DNA of 64,000 nt from assembly GCA_905480255.1 (NCBI GenBank), contig CAJQPR010000043.1, forward strand, positions 1-64,000, read 5' to 3'. Below, piece after piece: positions 5,594-17,694 of this stretch. The translations under genes and the position numbers were made by a program. Within the stretch, counting starts at the first letter, position 1. Each line of letters starts with the position of its first letter. This stretch comes from an uncultured Woeseiaceae bacterium (GTDB lineage: Bacteria > Pseudomonadota > Gammaproteobacteria > Steroidobacterales > Woeseiaceae). The notes under the pieces are model-generated. The model had not been told where the DNA came from. It saw only the letters and a program-made list of their open reading frames with translations, and ran no database searches.

Positions 5594-6223
5594 TTGAACC
5601 AAATTTATTCGCGTCGACCTGCCAATGACAGCTCGATTCCCAACGTAATTTTCATAGTGCTGATAATCAACGGTCTCGCATTCGCGTTACAGCAGATGCA
5701 GCAATTTGATCAGTTCATCTTTTTTAATTTCGCGCTGTGGCCATTGGGCTCAACGTTCCCCGGCTTTAAACCGTGGCAGTTGCTGACATACGGATTCCTC
5801 CACGGCGGCATGATGCACATCGCGTTCAACATGTTCATGTTGTGGATGTTCGGCCGGGAACTTGAAATGGTGTATGGAACCCGGCGATTCCTGACTTATT
5901 ACCTGACCTGTGTGGTCGGCGCCGGTATTGTTCAGCTGATCGTTGCGATGATTCAGGGCGGCGTCTATCCGACCGTTGGCGCTTCCGGTGGCGTGTTTGG
6001 TCTTTTGTTGTTGTTCGGCATGACGTTTCCGAATCGAATGATCATGCTGATGATTCCGCCGATTCCGATGAAGGCGAAGTACATGGTGATCCTGTTCGGT
6101 GTTTTGGAGCTTTATTTAGGCCTGAGCGGCAGAAGTCCTGGCATTGCGAACTTCGCACACCTTGGCGGCATGTTGTTCGGCTTCCTGCTGATTCAGCAGT
6201 GGAAAAGCTCGGCACGTCGATAG
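5594..6223 (+). CDS. rhomboid family intramembrane serine protease
   Basis: 209 residues from the TTG at 5594, which has AAGGA seven bases upstream. The longer open frame from 5522 overlaps the glycine tail of DUF2207 and is rejected. Six or so membrane segments are visible. The catalytic dyad is Ser131 in GASGG and His189 in NFAHLGG. The HGGMMHIAFNM motif supplies the oxyanion-side His and Asn (Asn79). Rhomboids cleave membrane helices within the bilayer. Adjacency to LemA/DUF2207 might mean a shared substrate, but this is speculative. Confidence 0.92.
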   Translation: MNQIYSRRPANDSSIPNVIFIVLIINGLAFALQQMQQFDQFIFFNFALWPLGSTFPGFKPWQLLTYGFLHGGMMHIAFNMFMLWMFGRELEMVYGTRRFLTYYLTCVVGAGIVQLIVAMIQGGVYPTVGASGGVFGLLLLFGMTFPNRMIMLMIPPIPMKAKYMVILFGVLELYLGLSGRSPGIANFAHLGGMLFGFLLIQQWKSSARR

Positions 6224-6239
6224 GTGCCGGAGATAACCC

Positions 6240-6557
6240 ATGACAAATGTTGTTGCGCTTATTGCTGCTACCGTCGTCCTGATCCTGATTCCCGGGCCGA
6301 ACGTCGCCCTGATCGTCGCAAACAGTCTGCGCCACGGTCTTAAGTCTGGATTGACCACAACGCTGGGGACAACGGCCGGCATTGCGATTCAGTTGTTTCT
6401 TGTTATTGCAGGAATGGCGGTAGTGATTGAGTTTGCGGCTTCCTCTTCGGAGCGGGCATCGGACTGGCATTCTCAAGGCGCAATTTCTGACGACCTGAAC
6501 ATCGCAAAGTGCAACTATTTCCAGCAAGGTTGCATCTATTACCTATCCAATCATTAA
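6240..6557 (+). pseudogene. truncated LysE/RhtB-type amino-acid exporter
   Basis: The first ~66 residues (MTNVVALIAATVVLILIPGP, then NVALIVANSLRHGLKSG) match the first two transmembrane helices of LysE/RhtB exporters. After about position 6440 the similarity stops abruptly, and a Ser- and Cys-rich unrelated tail runs to a stop at 6557. Intact members are about 200 residues with six helices; only two remain here. An internal deletion or recombination has probably removed the C-terminal two thirds. The remaining peptide is unlikely to transport anything. Confidence 0.7.
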
Positions 6558-6588
6558 ATACGTCAACCACTGACACCCGGGGGATTCA

Positions 6589-8130
6589 ATGGCGATCAAG
6601 AGACGGGACTTCCTTGGCCAAATGGCTGCAGGCAGCGCAATAGTTACGATGCCGGCATTTCTGCCCGGCTGCGGCGTGAACCAGGCAACACAAATGGCGA
6701 CGCCGACGCCCGAGAACCCGTTTATGACCTGGTTTGGCGTTGACGAGGCCGTCATCACCCGAGTGATGACGGAATTGACCGCAAACGGGGCGGACACGGC
6801 TGATCTCTATTTTCAGCATCAGCGAACGAACAACCTGTCGATGGAGGATGGCATCGTCAGTCGGGCGAATTCCGGAATTTCGCAGGGTGTCGGTCTCCGC
6901 GTTGTCATCGGGGAGCAAACCGGTTATGCCTTTACAGAGGACCTGACTCTTGAGTCGATGCTCGCCGCGGCAAGAACCGCGGCCGCCATTGCCAGCGGCA
7001 CGGGCCTGGTTGCGCCGCAGGCATTCAATCCCAAAAAGACCGGCGATCTCTATTCAATCGAGCTGCCATGGGCTGATGTCGGCATCGACCAGAAACTGCC
7101 GATCCTGAAACACGTGGACGCCCAGGCACGCAAAGGCGACCCTTCGATACAGAAAGTGTCTGTTAACTGGTCTGATTCGGATGATCGCGTCATGATCGCG
7201 ACGCTCGATGGTCACCTGATTATGGATCACCGCCCGATGACACGCCTGACGGCGATGGTTACCGCTACCCGTGATGGAGAGACACAGTCCGGATACTCGA
7301 ATATTGCCGCGCGGCAGGATTTCTCCTGGTACACCGAAGAGCGCATCAACAATATGGTGGAAGAGGCCGTCGACCGAACACTCATTTTGTTCGAAGCGAA
7401 ACGCCCGCCCGCAGGTGAAATGCCCGTGATCCTGGCCGCCGGCGCGTCGGGAATTCTTTTACACGAAGCGATCGGACACGGTATGGAAGCTGATTTCAAC
7501 CGCAAGGGCACCAGCATCTATTCAGACATGATCGGCAAAAAGGTGGCCGAACCGTTCGTCACGATCGTGGATCAGGGCACGATTCCAAAAGAACGTGGTG
7601 CACTGAATTATGATGACGAGGGCAACGAGTGCGGTCGCACAACGATGGTCGAGAACGGCGTACTCCGATCCTATCTGCATGATTCGATAAGCTCGCGTCA
7701 GTACAAAGTTGGTGCAACCGGATCCGGGCGTCGCCAGTCCTACCAATACGCGCCTATGCCGCGCATGACCTGCACGTTTATGGAAGACGGCCCGCACACA
7801 AAAGATGAAATCATCGCGTCGGTTGATCACGGCATCATTGCTGAGACCTACACGAACGGACAGGTGCAGATTGGTGCCGGCGACTTTACGTTCTATGTGA
7901 AGAACGGCTGGCTCGTTGAAGGCGGTAAGATCACGGCGCCGATCAAGGATGTAAACATTATTGGCAACGGCCCTGAAGCGCTGAAACGAATCTCGATGGT
8001 TGCGAATGACGCCAAGCTTGATACGGGTGGCTGGACTTGCGGTAAGAACGGGCAGCAGGTGCCGGTATCACAGGGAATACCGACAGTGCTTGTTTCCACG
8101 ATGACCGTGGGAGGCGAAAATGTCAGCTGA
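6589..8130 (+). CDS. TldD-type metalloprotease with Tat lipoprotein leader
   Basis: 513 residues; GGGGGA lies upstream of the ATG. The body is TldD-like: an N-terminal domain, then the metal motif HEAIGHGMEAD (His292, Glu293, His297) and a C-terminal GWTCGKNGQ segment supplying the Cys ligand. TldD/TldE heterodimers degrade peptides and mature microcins in the cytoplasm of E. coli. Here the N-terminus is KRRDFLGQMAAGSAIVT and then LPGC (Cys28), which looks like a twin-arginine signal plus lipobox and would place the enzyme outside the cytoplasm. The gene overlaps the TldE partner by 11 bases. Confidence 0.92.
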   Translation: MAIKRRDFLGQMAAGSAIVTMPAFLPGCGVNQATQMATPTPENPFMTWFGVDEAVITRVMTELTANGADTADLYFQHQRTNNLSMEDGIVSRANSGISQGVGLRVVIGEQTGYAFTEDLTLESMLAAARTAAAIASGTGLVAPQAFNPKKTGDLYSIELPWADVGIDQKLPILKHVDAQARKGDPSIQKVSVNWSDSDDRVMIATLDGHLIMDHRPMTRLTAMVTATRDGETQSGYSNIAARQDFSWYTEERINNMVEEAVDRTLILFEAKRPPAGEMPVILAAGASGILLHEAIGHGMEADFNRKGTSIYSDMIGKKVAEPFVTIVDQGTIPKERGALNYDDEGNECGRTTMVENGVLRSYLHDSISSRQYKVGATGSGRRQSYQYAPMPRMTCTFMEDGPHTKDEIIASVDHGIIAETYTNGQVQIGAGDFTFYVKNGWLVEGGKITAPIKDVNIIGNGPEALKRISMVANDAKLDTGGWTCGKNGQQVPVSQGIPTVLVSTMTVGGENVS

Positions 8131-9436
8131 TCTTCAGGATAGAGCCGCACAGGCAATTGAAATGCTGGCTGCCGCAGGCGCCGACGATGCCTGGGCAACT
8201 GCAGGTCAGAGTCGCGATGTCGAATTCAACTATCGCGACGGAGCGCTTGAAAAGGTCAAGGACACTACGTCGCAGCAGCTTGCTGTGCAGGTTTATGCGA
8301 AAGGCCGCTATTCCAGTCACCAGACGACAGACCTGAACCCGGATCGGCTTGCCGGCTTTCTGAAAGAGGCGGTGGCAATCACCGGCGCGCTGGAACCCGA
8401 CGACCAGAGAGCCGTTACATCCGCTGAGCTGTTTGCAAACCGGCCGGAAGCTGATCTTGATCTCGTTGACAGCACAGTTGAGGCGCTGGACCGTGATCAG
8501 CGTATGGCATGGTGCGTCGAGCTTGATGGCGCTGCCCGGCAGCATGAAAGAGTGATTTCGGCGACCTCGGCAGTTTATGACGGCACACAAACGCAGGCCT
8601 CAGCAAGCAGCAATGGATTTAGCGGCGTGCAGGAATCCACTTATTGCTGGTTGGGCGCAAACGTTACCCTGAGTGATCGCGGCGAGCGGCGAGCCGCTGA
8701 CGGATTTTTTGCCGGCTCATCTCATGTGGGTGATGTCCCTGACGCCGGTGAAGTGGCAGGCACCGCTTTGAAGCGTGCACTGGTGCGGCTGGATTCTGAA
8801 AAGGGTCCGACGGGCAAGACAACGATGGTGGTTGACTCGCGTGTCGCCGCGTCATTAATCGGCCGACTAATGGGACCGGCGTACGCAAGAAGCGTGCAGC
8901 AGGGTCGTTCGTTCTGGGCGGACCTGATCGATCAGGAAGCGTTCAGTTCGAAGCTGACAATTATTGATGACCCGCTGATCGTTCGTGGGCTCGGATCTCG
9001 TCATTACGATAGCGAAGGTATCTCTGCAAAAGTTTTGCCAATTGTCGAGCAGGGAGTCGTGAAAAACATCTACGTCGACACTTACTATGGCCGCAAAGCG
9101 GGGATGACTCCGACAACCGGACGGCCATCGAATCGACGAATTGACCCTGGTGAGCATTCGCTTGCGGATTTGCTCGGAGCGGCAGGCGAGGGCGTCTACG
9201 TCACGTCCTGGCTTGGTGGTAATGCAGACGGCACAACCGGTGATTTCTCACTTGGGCTTCGCGGTCACATGATTGAGAATGGAGAGATCGGCCGGCCAGT
9301 GGGCGAAATGAATGTCACCGGCAATCTCAAGGACCTGTTCACTCGTCTGGATGCTGTCGGCAACGATCCTTACCCGTACTCGACAACACTTGCACCAACG
9401 CTGGTCTTTTCCGACGTCGACTTTTCCGGCGTCTAG
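8120..9436 (+). CDS. TldE/PmbA-type partner subunit
   Basis: 438 residues. The family is recognisable from VEFNYRDGALEKVKDTTSQQ, the KTTMVVDSRVAASLIGRL segment, GLGSRHYDSEG and the C-terminal NGEIGRPVGEMNVTGN. It lacks the HExxxH motif, as expected for the non-catalytic TldE half. Unlike its neighbour it has no signal peptide. The start overlaps the end of the TldD gene, so the two are translated together and should form the usual heterodimer. It would have to reach the same compartment, perhaps by co-export with the Tat-leader partner. Confidence 0.92.
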   Translation: MSADLQDRAAQAIEMLAAAGADDAWATAGQSRDVEFNYRDGALEKVKDTTSQQLAVQVYAKGRYSSHQTTDLNPDRLAGFLKEAVAITGALEPDDQRAVTSAELFANRPEADLDLVDSTVEALDRDQRMAWCVELDGAARQHERVISATSAVYDGTQTQASASSNGFSGVQESTYCWLGANVTLSDRGERRAADGFFAGSSHVGDVPDAGEVAGTALKRALVRLDSEKGPTGKTTMVVDSRVAASLIGRLMGPAYARSVQQGRSFWADLIDQEAFSSKLTIIDDPLIVRGLGSRHYDSEGISAKVLPIVEQGVVKNIYVDTYYGRKAGMTPTTGRPSNRRIDPGEHSLADLLGAAGEGVYVTSWLGGNADGTTGDFSLGLRGHMIENGEIGRPVGEMNVTGNLKDLFTRLDAVGNDPYPYSTTLAPTLVFSDVDFSGV

Positions 9437-9611
9437 AGGTCGCCAAACACCAGCCGGACATAGGTCCCGATCAGGAGGAGCTGCCGCGGCAGTATTTGCC
9501 GGCCGATCCTTATTAAAGACGTCGCGACAAGCTTCTCCGTGTGCCCGATGAAAATGCGATACCTGTGCGGAATGATTCGCATCTCCCTCAAATTCGATCC
9601 GCTCATATACA

Positions 9612-11858
9612 ATGTCGCGGCGGACGAACATCCTGCGTCAGGCAGGACCTGGAGGGCGCTTGAACGACCAGTTTTTTTTCTCAACACAAGATTCGACGCA
9701 ACGTCGACGTTGGGTTGACCCGATCGCACGATACGCATGCCGGCTTCTGATTCCCGGTCTCTTGCTGTCCTTATCATCCGGCAATGTTGTTGCCGCCGAC
9801 AAAACCATCTCGTTGATGCAGTTGTCGGATGTGCACGGACATATGGCACCACACGCATCGGTCCTGGAAGGTGGTGAGCTGGATTCCAACAGTGGCGGAA
9901 TGGCCAAACTGGCCACGCTGATCAAGGACGTTCGGGCGGACAATCCGAACAACCTGCTACTGGTCGTCGGCGATACGACCCACGGCAGTGCCGAGATGTT
10001 GTTTAGCCTGGGCGATGCAATGATGCCGATTCTGAACGCACTGGATATTGATGCCTTCCTGCCAGGGAACTGGGACTTCGGTTGGGGACCCCGGGTTTAT
10101 CGCCAGCGCTTTACCCCGGACACAACAATCCGGTTGTCGCCGAACAACCGCACTACCATTGCATGGATGGACAACCGGCCGGGTCACGAAGGACAGAACT
10201 GCAACCAGGCCGGTGGGCTTAGACCGTATGCCGAATGTCACGTCATCAAGGCAAACTTCCCGACGGTGGCGAATAATCTGTACGACTACGATGAAGCAGC
10301 GCTCGTGCAGGGCCCGCGACTACACGAGCCCTACATCATCAGGAATGTCGATGGCGTCAACGTTGCATTGCTGGGTATCACCAGCGATTCGGTGCCGCAC
10401 CAGGCGCAGGCATTCAACACCGGCTTTCGTTTCACGATGGGGTTCAGCGAGCTGTCGGGAGATATTGCTGACGCACGCGCCGACGGTGCTGATCTTATCG
10501 TTGTCATGTCAGAGCTGGGTCTGACGAAGAGCCTGCAAATGGTCAGGGAGTTTCCTGGCATTGACGTGATGTTTAGCGCTCATAGTCATGAGCGAACTCC
10601 AGAGGCAATCGTGATCGAACACTCGGACGGCGAAATCAGCATCGTCACCGAAGCGGGTGAGGATGACTATCTCGGGCGACTGGACGTCACAGTGGATGAC
10701 GGGTCCGGCAGGATTGTTGACTGGAACTGGGAGCTGATCGAGGCGAACAGTGCTGTAACCGAAGATCCCGCTGTCAAAGATCTCGTCGACCGCGAGCGTG
10801 AAACATTTTTATCCGGCCCGGATTTCGAATGCCACACTTTCGGGACCAATGCTTTCCCGTTTGGCAAGGGTCATACCTTGTGTGAGACGCTGGACCATGT
10901 GGTCGGCCATACCGTGCCTACCATTCAACGCTTCAACGCTCTCGAGGATATCGTCAACAACGCCAATGTTGATGCCTTCATGGAGCTTGCACAGTTTGTC
11001 GATCCTGACCTTAATGACGGCAACTCACTATCGACCACCAACGGATTTCGATTCGACGTCACCATACTGGGTTCAGACGATGGGTTTAGTGGAGACATCA
11101 CGATCGGTGATCTCTATACCTATTACCCGATCGGTGCAGCAGTAGCCCTGGCTGAGTTCAGCGGCGGCCGGCTAATCGATCACTGGGAAGATGTTCTCGG
11201 TAACGTGTTTGACCCCAATCCGTATCGCCAGAGCGGCGGCTGGTTCCTTGGATTCACAAGAAACATGCACTTCGATATCCAGCTTGATGAGAAATCGTTG
11301 CAGACGTTAAGTGGTGGCAAACGAATCGAACGCGTAACGATTGATGATGGCAGCGGGCCAGATGACGTCGATCGCAGCAAGGTCTACACGCTGGCTTCAT
11401 GCTATCCGCATGGAAACTCGGTTGATGAAGTGTGCCGCACCTCCGGAGCGTTTAATGTCCGCTTTATGGCGGGCGCACGGGAGACAAGTGGCCCGGCTGA
11501 TATGTTTGGTAATCGACAGCTGGATATGAGTGGTGACAGCCATACCTTCAGTGTGGTGGCGCCGGAAAACTCTGTAAACATCTTTGATCCAACGCGGTCA
11601 CCGGTCCTGCTCAAAGTGGCGCCCGATAACTTCATTCACCCTATTGATGCTCTGCGTTGGTACTTGAGCGAGGGCCTGCCAGGCAGCAACAAAATTACTG
11701 CTTCCACTCATGGCCTGGGTCGGGTAGAGGTCGTCGGAGCCGACCCGACGGACGAACGTCGCGGTGTCCCAACATCTGAATTCGGCGGGAAAGGAATCGT
11801 TCAGCCGACGCAAGGCGCCGGCGCCAGGTGGCTGAAGCGAGGCGTGCTGCCAGAGTAG
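9612..11858 (+). CDS. 5'-nucleotidase/SoxB-like metallophosphoesterase
   Basis: Up to 748 residues. The ATG at 9612 gives a ~45-residue basic pre-leader; the TTG at 9660, preceded by GGAGGG, may be the true start. A signal-like helix ends near NVVAADK. The calcineurin-like domain shows MQLSDVHGHM, VVGDTTHGS, PGNWDFGWG and SAHSHERTP. The Asn-Trp-Asp-Phe version of the third motif resembles SoxB (thiosulfohydrolase) more than classic 5'-nucleotidases (GNHEF). The second half is a 5'-nucleotidase C-terminal domain. It is likely periplasmic and binds two metals; whether the substrate is a nucleotide or a sulfur compound is open, and no other sox genes are present. Confidence 0.8.
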   Translation: MSRRTNILRQAGPGGRLNDQFFFSTQDSTQRRRWVDPIARYACRLLIPGLLLSLSSGNVVAADKTISLMQLSDVHGHMAPHASVLEGGELDSNSGGMAKLATLIKDVRADNPNNLLLVVGDTTHGSAEMLFSLGDAMMPILNALDIDAFLPGNWDFGWGPRVYRQRFTPDTTIRLSPNNRTTIAWMDNRPGHEGQNCNQAGGLRPYAECHVIKANFPTVANNLYDYDEAALVQGPRLHEPYIIRNVDGVNVALLGITSDSVPHQAQAFNTGFRFTMGFSELSGDIADARADGADLIVVMSELGLTKSLQMVREFPGIDVMFSAHSHERTPEAIVIEHSDGEISIVTEAGEDDYLGRLDVTVDDGSGRIVDWNWELIEANSAVTEDPAVKDLVDRERETFLSGPDFECHTFGTNAFPFGKGHTLCETLDHVVGHTVPTIQRFNALEDIVNNANVDAFMELAQFVDPDLNDGNSLSTTNGFRFDVTILGSDDGFSGDITIGDLYTYYPIGAAVALAEFSGGRLIDHWEDVLGNVFDPNPYRQSGGWFLGFTRNMHFDIQLDEKSLQTLSGGKRIERVTIDDGSGPDDVDRSKVYTLASCYPHGNSVDEVCRTSGAFNVRFMAGARETSGPADMFGNRQLDMSGDSHTFSVVAPENSVNIFDPTRSPVLLKVAPDNFIHPIDALRWYLSEGLPGSNKITASTHGLGRVEVVGADPTDERRGVPTSEFGGKGIVQPTQGAGARWLKRGVLPE

Positions 11859-12685: not shown

Positions 12686-12927
12686 ATTCGCCGCCGGTGG
12701 CGCCTCGAAGCTCAATTTCACCCGCTCGCCACCATTTAGCTGGCAGATAGATGAGGATCGCATTATCCTAGAGTCCGGGTCGCCTGATAGCCATTTAGCG
12801 GGCAACGCGATCTTGTACTGTTGCCTAAAATGGGTCGGTCTGCTTTAATGCGCGCCCCAATTCGCGTTGCGCGCTCTATAGCATGCGAATCAGAATAATG
12901 AAGACAAAACCACCAATTGAGGTCCAA

Positions 12928-13323
12928 ATGATGAAAAATACCAACCTATTCGCAGTTTTGGCGGCAATTGCCTCGTTGGCAGCCGTTCCAGCGGCGAGCG
13001 CCCAGGAGTTAACCTGCGAAAGTGTCAATTTCTCGCAAGCAGTCCTGGATGCGCACGGCAGCGTTCGCTTTTCATGCCTTGATATCGTCGAGCGCGATGG
13101 CTCGCCGCATGCGGTACTTAACGCCGAGGTAGTGCGAGCTGTATCACCAAATCTCACTGTGAAATTCAAGCGAAGTGACGGCACCATGTCGAATCCCGTC
13201 ACGCTTACCCCGGAAATGGGCTATACATTCGCCCTTGACGGCGGCAAAAAGATGGCCCTGCGGGACTTGACGGCTACAACGGTATTGCGTGTTTATGTTC
13301 CGGTTACCGCGCCGGTCGCATAA
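12928..13323 (+). CDS. small secreted protein of unknown function
   Basis: 131 residues from ATGATG at 12928, preceded by GAGG; upstream in-frame codons from 12883 give no leader. The signal peptide ends PAASA. The mature part has two Cys residues (LTCESVNF and FSCLDIVE) about 20 residues apart, a possible disulfide, and strand-like sequence ending VLRVYVPVTAPVA. No family was recognised. A strong terminator follows about 160 bases downstream, so it may be monocistronic. The 240 bases upstream hold no recognisable gene. Confidence 0.6.
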   Translation: MMKNTNLFAVLAAIASLAAVPAASAQELTCESVNFSQAVLDAHGSVRFSCLDIVERDGSPHAVLNAEVVRAVSPNLTVKFKRSDGTMSNPVTLTPEMGYTFALDGGKKMALRDLTATTVLRVYVPVTAPVA

Positions 13324-13866: not shown

Positions 13867-16800
13867 CTACTTGCGGCGTATTCGGTATTGCCGGTTGGCT
13901 ATGAGGGGTGCGTCGAAGTTTGTTGCTACTCCGTCGGGCCAGGTGACAGTGGCGCGATCTATTTCACTGTGGACACCGATGCCAAAGTGAGCAACTGCAT
14001 TATCGAATGACAGGAAGCCGCCACTCATTCTGATTTCCTTGCGCTGCTGCAATTCGTTATTGCCGCCATAGAAGATCGTAATGGTGGCGCCAATCGCATC
14101 GCTGTTGCCGCCGTCCTGTTCAAGGCGAAACGTAATGGAGTTGTTCTCCGATTGCTGATTCAGGAAGACGCGCGGCGGCGAAAGCACGCCTGTCGCAATG
14201 ATGTCGATATCGCCGTCCAGATCGAAATCAGTGTACGTATAGCTCGGCGTGTTGATCGTATCGGCGAGACCCCAGCTTTCAGCAATTTCTTCGAATCCCG
14301 CGCCCTCTAGATTGCGGTACATGATGTTCGGTTGAACTTCATAAAAACTGTCGCCGAAATGAAATCCATTGCCGATATAAATGTCCTGCCAACCGTCGTT
14401 ATCCAGGTCAGCCGCCTTTGCATTCCAGCTCCAGAAGCTCGAATCGACGCCATATTCCTGGCTTCTGTCGGTGAAACTGGTGCCGTCATTCATTAGCAGG
14501 ACGTTGCGCTGTGCCTGCTGAATGTAGTCGTTTTGGTTGATGCGCTGTTCCGGTGGCACAGGGCCGGCGATGTGTTCGCACAGTGAATGCAACGCGCCGG
14601 ATTGATCAGGGAGGTTCTCACAATACCTTGAATCTTTTAATGTTTTTGCAGCCTTGACAGAGAAGGCGATGAAGCAATCGTTCCGATCAGCCTGTGATTC
14701 AAGCTCACTGCACTCAGCGGCGTCACCCGACGTAAAGACCTCGAACCCCTGCAAGACTGTGTCGCACCGAGCTTGTGCGTCGTCGCTTGTGATGGCGCTA
14801 CAGTAACTGTCATTCGAGCTACGGGCGAAGGTCATATCTGTACTGAACAAATCAGGCTTCAGATCGTTGTCAAAATCGGCCGCATCCAGGCTCATCGTGA
14901 ACATCGAGGTCACCGGCACCATTGTCTGGTCATTGCCCAGCAGCTGCATTTGCCGGTCAGCATTGCTGAGATACCAGAGATCCGGCACGAGCCGATCGTT
15001 GCCAAACAACAGGTCGGGCCGATGATCGTCGTTTATGTCCGTCAGCAGGACTGAATTCGTCTCGCCCCTGGCATCCCCGGATTGCTGAGATACATAAGCA
15101 TCGCCGTCGCGGCGCATCAATACATTTTCAGACTGGTCAGCGGAAAAAAGCTTCTCTGCGCCACTGCTCCAGTTGCCAAGAACGATATCAAGGTCGTCGT
15201 CCTGGTCAAGATCCGCAAAACCGGCAGACATCGTGAGGCGCTGGTTACTATCCAGCGGGATCAGCCGGGATTGTGAGAAGCCGTCAGCAAGATTCATTAA
15301 GAGGAAGTTCTGTCCACCGTAAGCTGTCGCAAACAAGTCGTCCCGGCCATCGCCGTCGGCGTCAACCAGCGCCACCAGGAAAAGGTTTTCTGTGCCGAGC
15401 TCGCCTTGGTCGATATCAACAAGCTGGAATCGACCGCCGGTGTTTTTGTAAATGGCAGCGCCGCGCTCTGTCGCCAGAACAAGATCCGGCCAGGGGTCGC
15501 TGTCGATATCTCCGGAAGCGATGCCTTTACCGACAATGAATGGTTCAAAAAAATCGGTAATGCGGAAGTTCCAGTACTTCGAGATGCCGAAGTCATCCGC
15601 TGAAGCTCGCGAAAAGAGCGTTTGGGTGTTTACGGCATTTCGATCCCGGTTGTCGATATAGCTAATCGTCACCGACTCATCCTCAACGGTCAGCGACCAG
15701 TCGAGAGGAGGGGCGATTGCGGTCGAGGTGGCCGATGTTGTGCGTCCCGACCCGACTGCGCCAGGCACAGGGTCGGGCAGAAGGTTCAGCGAATAATTTG
15801 TGAGTATCGTCGAAATCTGGCGATCGGCAACGCGCAACATGCAGTTTTCATCAAGCCGTTCGGACTGAAGTTGCCTGCAGAGATTGAGCGAACCCGTTCG
15901 TGCCGCCTCCCAGGCGATCACCTGTTCTTCGCAGCGCAAGCGAGGTTGCGGCGATGCCAGCAGTTCGCAACCTGAAGTATCATTGCTGCGGCCGACCATG
16001 GTGCTCGCGGTGACCAATCGGCAATGTGCCTGGGCATTTGCTGGCAGCGTGTCGCACGCGCCAATATCCATCGTGTCGGCGATCCGGTAGATACGCGCGT
16101 TAACCTGGCAGTCGAATCGATCCGAGCCCTCAAGGTCGGCGCAAACAGAATCGTCCGGATTAAACAAAAGGCTGCTATTCAAATATTGAACGCGGCACCG
16201 CTGCACCTCGACGGCGGGCGACAAGCTTTCACATTCCGTGACGTCGTGATTTTTCAGGGCAGTTTGCAACGCGAAGCTTCGCAGACACTCGGATCGTCCC
16301 TCGTTTTGCTGGAGTGCGAGACAGGGTTCGCTGGATGAGCTCGCGAGCGCCTCTTCTCTTCCGGCAATCATCTTCACCATTTGTTCGCAGGTCTGTCGAT
16401 CCACGCTCGGCGGTCGATCAACGCAGATTTCAGCATAGGGAACGAGTATTGTCAGGTTCGGAATCTGGACCGCAAAACAGCGAACCTGCAACGCCTCTGG
16501 CAATGTGCCACAAACATTCAGCACGTCCTGAAACGAATTACGCTTGCCCTCTGCAAGTCCTGCAGTAATCACATCCTGATCTGACGCCATCTTCTGGTCG
16601 AAGTAGCTGCCGGTTCCTGCTCCCAGGCCTGTCGCGATAATGATTACGGTCACAGCCATTGCGACACTCAGCCGGGGTGAAATAAATCTCGCAATAACCG
16701 TGGCCGGATAGATGCTGTAGGCGCTGAGCGCAAACAAAAGCACCGCGCCAATACCGGGATGCATGCCGTTGGACAACAGTGCCATCACGACAACGACGTT

Positions 16801-17694
16801 GAACGCCATGGGTACTGGCAGGAACGTAGCCACAACAGCGGTGATGAGCAGAACCGGGACTGTTGGCGCAATGTTGGACAGACGATCGAACGGCGCCAAT
16901 TCGATAACCAGTGCGCCGAGAGCCCCGGCAAGCAGCATTAGTGGCACTGCCAGCTTTACGATGTAGTACAGGTTTCGCAGGTAGTGGCGACTGGTGCTCA
17001 CAAGAGCTGCTAGGTATCCGCCTTCGTCGAAACTATCCGCGGTCGGTGGAGCGGAAATTCGTGCAACGCGTGCAATATCTTCTTCACCCGGGATCCTGGC
17101 TGGAGCTTCAGTCGCAAAACGATTTACCAGAATCGGCATGCTTGCCAGGAAGAGAAGTACGGCGAGCACGCTGCCCAAAGCGACTTCGAGGGGTAACAAA
17201 GTGAACGACATGCTGAGCACAATGACGTTCAACGTTGGTGAGCTGACCAGCGTAGCCAGCGCTGTCTCAAGGCGAGCGCCGGCAGCATACATGCCTTGTG
17301 CAATAGGCGTAGCGCAATTGACGCAAACACCCAGTGGCGCGCCGATAAACATTCCGGAGATTGTATTCATCCACGGTCTGCTGAAACTTCGGTGGCGGAC
17401 AAAGCTCAGGATGGTGAGCGCTGCTGCTGCGAACAGCAGACCGAAGGTCATACCTTTCCAGTTCGTATAGAGCCAGTTGACAGTGGACCGGGCAATTCGC
17501 TCAATGGCGGGCTGGTCGTCGCTGACGGGAAGCACGATATCAAAGGCGATGGAACTGAAATTGGTGCGCAGTCCCATCTGGGCTTTTTCATTGAGCGCCG
17601 GCACGCGGGACTGCGACCAGAAAATTGCCGCGATCACAATTGCGAACGCAATAGCGATGACCAGCCGCTTATTACGGGAAGCCGGCGGTCTCAC
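13867..17694 (-). CDS. ArsP-type permease fused to Cys-pair repeats and FG-GAP/UnbV domains
   Basis: 1275 residues from a GTG. Residues ~10-27 are one membrane helix. Residues ~80-365 are a polytopic permease with CVNCATPIAQGMYAAGARL (Cys124, Cys127) and SSPTLN, like the UPF0718/ArsP family (methyl-arsenical exporters and unknowns). Residues 395-618 hold eight pairs of the form C-x10/11-C spaced about 30 residues apart. Residues ~700-1170 hold FG-GAP/VCBS blades with acidic Ca-type loops (DADGDGRDD, DLDNDGWQD, DFDLDGDID), interrupted at 965-1039 by three more Cys pairs. Residues ~1185-1272 match the ASPIC/UnbV domain. The permease would sit in the inner membrane and the rest in the periplasm. 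The substrate is unknown. It stands alone on its strand. Confidence 0.85.
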   Translation of the reverse strand: MRPPASRNKRLVIAIAFAIVIAAIFWSQSRVPALNEKAQMGLRTNFSSIAFDIVLPVSDDQPAIERIARSTVNWLYTNWKGMTFGLLFAAAALTILSFVRHRSFSRPWMNTISGMFIGAPLGVCVNCATPIAQGMYAAGARLETALATLVSSPTLNVIVLSMSFTLLPLEVALGSVLAVLLFLASMPILVNRFATEAPARIPGEEDIARVARISAPPTADSFDEGGYLAALVSTSRHYLRNLYYIVKLAVPLMLLAGALGALVIELAPFDRLSNIAPTVPVLLITAVVATFLPVPMAFNVVVVMALLSNGMHPGIGAVLLFALSAYSIYPATVIARFISPRLSVAMAVTVIIIATGLGAGTGSYFDQKMASDQDVITAGLAEGKRNSFQDVLNVCGTLPEALQVRCFAVQIPNLTILVPYAEICVDRPPSVDRQTCEQMVKMIAGREEALASSSSEPCLALQQNEGRSECLRSFALQTALKNHDVTECESLSPAVEVQRCRVQYLNSSLLFNPDDSVCADLEGSDRFDCQVNARIYRIADTMDIGACDTLPANAQAHCRLVTASTMVGRSNDTSGCELLASPQPRLRCEEQVIAWEAARTGSLNLCRQLQSERLDENCMLRVADRQISTILTNYSLNLLPDPVPGAVGSGRTTSATSTAIAPPLDWSLTVEDESVTISYIDNRDRNAVNTQTLFSRASADDFGISKYWNFRITDFFEPFIVGKGIASGDIDSDPWPDLVLATERGAAIYKNTGGRFQLVDIDQGELGTENLFLVALVDADGDGRDDLFATAYGGQNFLLMNLADGFSQSRLIPLDSNQRLTMSAGFADLDQDDDLDIVLGNWSSGAEKLFSADQSENVLMRRDGDAYVSQQSGDARGETNSVLLTDINDDHRPDLLFGNDRLVPDLWYLSNADRQMQLLGNDQTMVPVTSMFTMSLDAADFDNDLKPDLFSTDMTFARSSNDSYCSAITSDDAQARCDTVLQGFEVFTSGDAAECSELESQADRNDCFIAFSVKAAKTLKDSRYCENLPDQSGALHSLCEHIAGPVPPEQRINQNDYIQQAQRNVLLMNDGTSFTDRSQEYGVDSSFWSWNAKAADLDNDGWQDIYIGNGFHFGDSFYEVQPNIMYRNLEGAGFEEIAESWGLADTINTPSYTYTDFDLDGDIDIIATGVLSPPRVFLNQQSENNSITFRLEQDGGNSDAIGATITIFYGGNNELQQRKEIRMSGGFLSFDNAVAHFGIGVHSEIDRATVTWPDGVATNFDAPLIANRQYRIRRK

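Follow-up and report, generated by a model that had tools for sequence, protein, structure and literature searches.

Why a permease and a propeller in one gene

Why should a membrane permease be joined, in one chain, to a large propeller of a kind otherwise found in secreted proteins? The question is posed by a gene at positions 13867-17694 of a 64,000-nucleotide stretch of DNA from an uncultured Woeseiaceae bacterium (GenBank assembly GCA_905480255.1, contig CAJQPR010000043.1, positions 1 to 64,000), here called the window. An earlier note, made from the letters alone, had described a fusion of a permease, Cys-pair repeats and FG-GAP/UnbV modules in a protein of 1275 residues, which Pfam and the reading frame bear out, with one correction, of strand: a single unbroken frame on the minus strand runs from a GTG start at 17694 to 13867 and encodes 1275 amino acids, and the plus-strand reading of the same interval meets many stops. 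The G+C content of the gene (0.55) equals that of its flanks (0.55). Our preferred, though tentative, reading is that of a permease for a soft metal or chalcogen to which a periplasmic module of its own, for recognition or hand-over, is tethered. The parts of the gene (IT, ion transporter) are as follows.

13867-17694, minus strand: whole gene, permease-Cys-repeat-propeller-UnbV fusion of 1275 residues (open reading frame and full-length relatives)
16570-17694, minus strand: probable ArsP_1/IT-type permease domain, residues 1-375 (Pfam, AlphaFold model, VIA-align)
17284-17376, minus strand: first helix-break-helix element, residues 107-137, a putative re-entrant hairpin (secondary structure of the model)
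17314-17325, minus strand: CVNC motif at the break between the two helices, residues 124-127 (alignment of 29 sequences, model)
15784-16512, minus strand: eight Cys-pair helical repeats with a period of about 30, residues 395-637, long form only (sequence, model)
14155-15630, minus strand: seven-bladed FG-GAP beta-propeller, CRTAC1-like, residues 689-1180 (Pfam, model, CRTAC1 match at Z 33.3)
14560-14817, minus strand: three extra Cys-pair repeats inserted in the propeller, residues 960-1045, long and short forms (sequence, relatives)
13888-14097, minus strand: ASPIC/UnbV domain, residues 1200-1269 (Pfam; also within the CRTAC1 match)

The propeller almost certainly has the CRTAC1 fold. Pfam recognises FG-GAP_3 in six stretches (96 bits, cut-off 26.9), FG-GAP (31.2 bits) and, at residues 1200-1269, UnbV_ASPIC (53.8 bits, cut-off 23.4), and a model of residues 375-1275 (predicted local distance difference test, pLDDT, 89.5; predicted template modelling score 0.87) has as its top structural match murine CRTAC1 (9etn), with Z 33.3 over 443 residues at a root-mean-square deviation of 2.5 Å and the runner-up at 24.2; the FG-GAP blades and ASPIC/UnbV-like end of the earlier description are thus confirmed. 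CRTAC1/FG-GAP-ASPIC/UnbV proteins share this seven-bladed propeller and UnbV domain but are secreted and stand alone, whereas the window propeller is tethered to a polytopic permease in the same reading frame and carries a three-pair Cys insert. A further CRTAC1-type protein encoded by the window's genome stands alone and has 565 residues (L179; genome G000, contig C118, 5119-6813); its propeller groups with ordinary CRTAC1 proteins.

Residues 1-375 are very probably a permease of the ArsP/IT type. ArsP_1 (PF03773) matches residues 112-355 with 33.2 bits, which meets the gathering score (cut-off 32.3), and it scores 45.1 bits in the divergent relatives L147 and L148 and 49.1 in L149; the possibility that the N-terminal part would match no permease profile, which had been named as a refutation, thereby fell away. 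The AlphaFold model of the permease (mean pLDDT 83.6) places helix-break-helix elements at residues 107-137 and 279-308, and its helices at 142-166 and 313-337 are broken, a pattern that appears to fit inverted-repeat carriers, and the leading structural matches of this modelled N-terminal fold are all IT-superfamily carriers (NaDC3, Z 10.7; ArsB, Z 10.4; NaS1, Pho90 and INDY). Set beside ArsB, DASS/INDY and Pho90, the predicted helix order and the putative inverted repeat appear to agree, whereas identity is about 10% at Z 10-11, the window permease is shorter, and cysteines occupy its putative hairpin.

The Cys-x-x-Cys noticed earlier in this polytopic domain is C124-V-N-C127, whose place at a helix break in the model resembles the tip of a re-entrant hairpin of the ion-transporter fold. 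All 29 aligned permease sequences share C124, N126, C127, P130, S152, P153 and N156 without exception, the motif reading CVNC in most members and CANC or CTNC in L147-L149, and it aligns, as a spacing variant, with the CSC/CxCC (CxC/CxCC) motif of about 40 stand-alone ArsP permeases. The ArsP_1/UPF0718 permeases (ArsP, SaoE, SO_0444) resemble the window protein in the permease region, in the position of the Cys pair and in the SSPxxN-type motif that follows; however, other ArsP_1 members in the genome samples are single-domain proteins (open frames of 257-581 amino acids), whereas the window protein has the C-x-N-C form, an extra conserved N-terminal FWxxSRxPxLxxKAxM and about 900 presumably periplasmic residues after the permease. 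By the count of membrane helices, the N-terminus would lie on the inner side of the membrane and the large module on the outer.

All 24 cysteines of the protein can be placed: two lie in the CVNC motif and the other 22 form 11 pairs (eight at 395-618, three at 965-1039), with a nearly constant spacing of 11-12 residues within a pair and 18 between pairs, apart from one gap of 22 and a last pair of 14. The Cys-rich region of the earlier note thus comprises eight repeats at 395-618, to which three more within the propeller, not separated there, must be added. A profile of the propeller-insert repeats matches the middle region at 19.1 bits (best of 200 shuffles, 8.0), and the reverse profile matches the propeller insert at 22.5 bits (shuffles, 7.4); because recognition works both ways, the two sets are one repeat type. 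Each unit is modelled as a short helix followed by a long one, and the pairing, together with the presumed periplasmic side, suggests disulfides within units. Stand-alone propellers with the same cysteine insert occur at L009:576-8949, where their neighbours are a regular gene of the CRTAC1 type and proteins rich in cysteine that have HxxGH-like motifs, with no permease in view.

A conserved family of fusions

Full-length fused relatives were found by a contig scan in Gammaproteobacteria, Maricaulis, Marinicauda, Rhodobacteraceae and Bdellovibrionia, and permease-profile searches of single genomes added more, for a total of about 25 distinct loci outside plasmids in Gamma- and Alphaproteobacteria and Bdellovibrionota (a count that allows for L154 and L005, apparently one and the same contig, and for L012 and L017, nearly copies of each other). 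Eight Rhodobacterales plasmids also carry the fusion, annotated as 'FG-GAP-like repeat-containing protein', the label that databases give it. Many genomes show the same three-part architecture, which rejects an assembly join, the other refutation that had been foreseen, and a misread frame is likewise rejected on the strength of the full-length relatives and the uniform G+C. We regard it as virtually certain that the fused architecture is a real conserved family; a literature search, in the part of the sources that it covered, found no account of a permease with FG-GAP/UnbV domains.

Among 369 genomes sampled from the window's class, nine hold the permease clade at E 1e-77 or better, eight of them fused and one stand-alone; for ordinary ArsP permeases the values are 2.9e-12 or weaker in that sample, and in the phylum sample the best is about 1e-15. 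A wider scan of Alphaproteobacteria gave no fused member beyond one already known. The family has a long form of about 1280 amino acids with the middle repeats and a short form of about 1000-1090 without them, and the genus to which the window belongs includes both (G006 and G003); in L148 the Cys repeats are missing altogether. Cultured carriers are Maricaulis alexandrii, Marinicauda salina, Tateyamaria omphalii and Phaeobacter sp. G2. Two copies are possibly decayed: an in-frame TGA breaks the gene in L146 (genome G072), and in Parasedimentitalea marina (L182:9043-12064) it is annotated as three pieces.

Trees of the permease domain unite all fused members with L149 in one group (100/100), and the propellers of the main group form one clade (100/99). 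The L148 propeller falls among ordinary CRTAC1 proteins (100/99), as though a permease of this kind had acquired a propeller in a second, separate event. In an approximately unbiased (AU) test in which L147, L148 and the main group were held together, a single origin was not rejected (p 0.11), and for this reason two independent fusion origins, which we considered, are not claimed.

Stand-alone kin and a possible soft-metal or chalcogen cargo

What such a permease might carry is suggested by its stand-alone kin. The group formed by the fused permeases and L149 has as its sister (99/96) a clade of CxCC permeases that stand alone, among them genes beside selD/mnmH (L116-L119, L121, L123, L127 and L141), the first and last cysteines of which align with C124 and C127. 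They differ from the window protein in standing alone, in having CxCC rather than CxNC, and in a selenium setting in three of the genomes looked at, where the permeases L207, L209 and L211 lie beside MnmH, and L207 and L209 beside SelD too; this neighbourhood suggests a selenium permease. L149 itself (5870-11787, genome G321), whose tree position is unsure on account of long branches, is a stand-alone CxNC-clade permease between the genes for MbnP, a copper-binding protein (TIGR04052; 258 bits, cut-off 140), and MbnH, a di-haem enzyme (TIGR04039; 494 bits, cut-off 363), with a MerR-type regulator downstream and all genes on the same strand, and it is possibly the transporter of this copper pair. 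MbnP and MbnH are not near the window gene; the genome of the window has an MbnP gene at another place (C56). As a general rule the copper link was rejected: L149 is its one instance, and none of 11 other MbnP loci has such a permease nearby.

Because the nearest stand-alone permeases sit in selenium and copper settings, a soft metal or chalcogen is favoured as cargo, an assignment that we put at a little under even chances; we make no choice among copper, selenium and arsenic. The kin speak for selenium or copper no less than for arsenic.

A proposed tethered permease and its rivals

In our preferred reading, the protein would be an ArsP/IT-type carrier of the inner membrane, with a large periplasmic module as its permanent attachment. 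Residues 1-375 would form an inverted-repeat permease in which the first re-entrant hairpin bears C-x-N-C at its tip, the usual substrate site of the fold, where two thiols would suit a soft ion or group (of the Cu(I), As(III), Hg or Se type) and not an ordinary nutrient. The last membrane helix would run on into the periplasm, in the long form, as a solenoid of disulfide-clamped helical repeats that holds the seven-bladed CRTAC1 propeller at a distance from the membrane; this propeller, of a calcium-binding type, would itself be clamped by three more repeats. Cargo might then pass outward from the permease to the propeller, or to a partner docked there, or in the opposite direction; the fusion may sense, capture or deliver the transported substrate, as the earlier note had proposed. 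That the protein works as a transporter is probable, and that it hands cargo over to the attached propeller is conceivable but doubtful.

The protein could instead be a surface-assembly factor, its permease part serving mainly as an anchor (or moving a small factor) and its periplasmic propeller acting, alongside a machine for type II secretion or a pseudopilus, as the receptor of exported surface proteins or as their chaperone. The setting in Alphaproteobacteria speaks for this: a recurring cassette in Maricaulales and Rhodobacterales (L011, L013, L015, L150, L181 and L183) combines GspD/GspK or GspG/K/L, a prepilin peptidase, two Sel1/TPR genes, a gene of about 140 amino acids and one for a secreted S74-type fibre of about 390, whose N-terminus reads SLCVGxDCVNGESFGFDTIRLKENNLRI. 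The fibre gene is present in eight fused alphaproteobacterial loci and in none of 60 control CRTAC1 loci, and among 72,556 plasmid records the fusion is found in eight, the fibre in nine and both in seven, although these plasmids are close kin and the counts not independent. Prepilin-like genes accompany 8 of 32 fused loci as against 3 of 60 controls, and minor type IV pilins adjoin the gammaproteobacterial L002, L003 and L007. However, the window gene has no such neighbours and is probably a single-gene unit, with a divergent M28 peptidase gene on one side and a convergent gene (12883-13323) on the other; in the class sample, a strong fibre match (six genomes) and the permease clade (nine) coincide once (G054), the fibre being absent from most fused genomes, so that the fibre link fails there as a general rule; and the invariant residues, which are of the transport type, are hard to square with an anchor alone. 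Delivery to a surface partner, as earlier proposed, therefore has some backing in Alphaproteobacteria from the type II secretion, Sel1 and fibre genes, and the link fails outside that class. We consider a surface-assembly role rather unlikely, though on the strength of the alphaproteobacterial cassette a rival to be taken seriously.

Two further explanations were considered. An invariant membrane C-x-x-C and 11 periplasmic Cys pairs in one chain could suggest a thiol relay, in which CVNC is a redox pair that moves electrons or disulfides between the cytoplasm and the periplasmic pairs. In DsbD and CcdA there is one redox Cys per pseudo-repeat, whereas here CVNC lies in repeat 1 and repeat 2 has no invariant Cys; an invariant Asn stands between the two cysteines, short forms have three periplasmic pairs only and L148 none of the repeats, and it is ArsP/IT carriers, not DsbD, that the protein matches in sequence and fold. 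A relay thus seems very unlikely. An ordinary ArsP-kind exporter of organoarsenicals or metals, with the attached domains as a passive extension, would accord with the ArsP_1 score and with ArsB among the top structural matches, but none of the fused members examined was found to have ars genes as neighbours, the nearest stand-alone kin have the selenium and copper settings described above, and conservation of the propeller is roughly that of the permease, the domain having been retained from Bdellovibrionota to Alphaproteobacteria, all of which makes this alternative improbable.

Several observations weigh against the tethered soft-metal or chalcogen permease as well. The ArsP_1 score exceeds its cut-off by only 0.9 bits, and although SaoE (NF040736) and SO_0444 Cu/Zn transporter (NF033936) are the nearest NCBIfam models, their scores of 50.8 and 30.8 bits lie far below the equivalog cut-offs of 325 and 300, so that membership in either was rejected. 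The permease Z of 10-11 falls short of the value recommended for helical bundles (about 13), and plain Foldseek with a 690-residue model gave nothing significant (E above 0.01); since the Z is moderate for a helical protein and Foldseek not significant, the IT-type fold is supported rather than proven. No metal or selenium genes were recognised beside fused genes, whose alphaproteobacterial setting is one of secretion and surface fibres, the copper clue comes from one genome, and co-occurrence of MbnP with the fusion is not clearly beyond chance in the class sample.

Other neighbours of the fused genes

No neighbour is common to all fused members examined. Bdellovibrionia fused genes come after two cytochrome c genes; at L144:4357-12035 the fused gene lies directly between genes for a non-ribosomal peptide synthetase and a sulfotransferase, and sulfotransferase genes are near several plasmid copies too. 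Within the window, two PmbA/TldD-type metallopeptidase genes stand side by side at 6589-9436.

Implications

By joining a permease and a CRTAC1-type propeller in one protein, the fusion ties two orphan families (FG-GAP/ASPIC and UPF0718) to one process, and its presence in cultured bacteria makes it open to experiment. The fusion might even be a self-contained machine in which the CxNC permease loads a soft metal or chalcogen into the attached propeller, or a partner, and thereby matures or cross-links exported surface proteins, with the Cys-repeat solenoid setting its reach; we think this a long shot, but if it were true, bacterial CRTAC1-type propellers would be acceptors of cofactors or metals and not passive adhesion modules.

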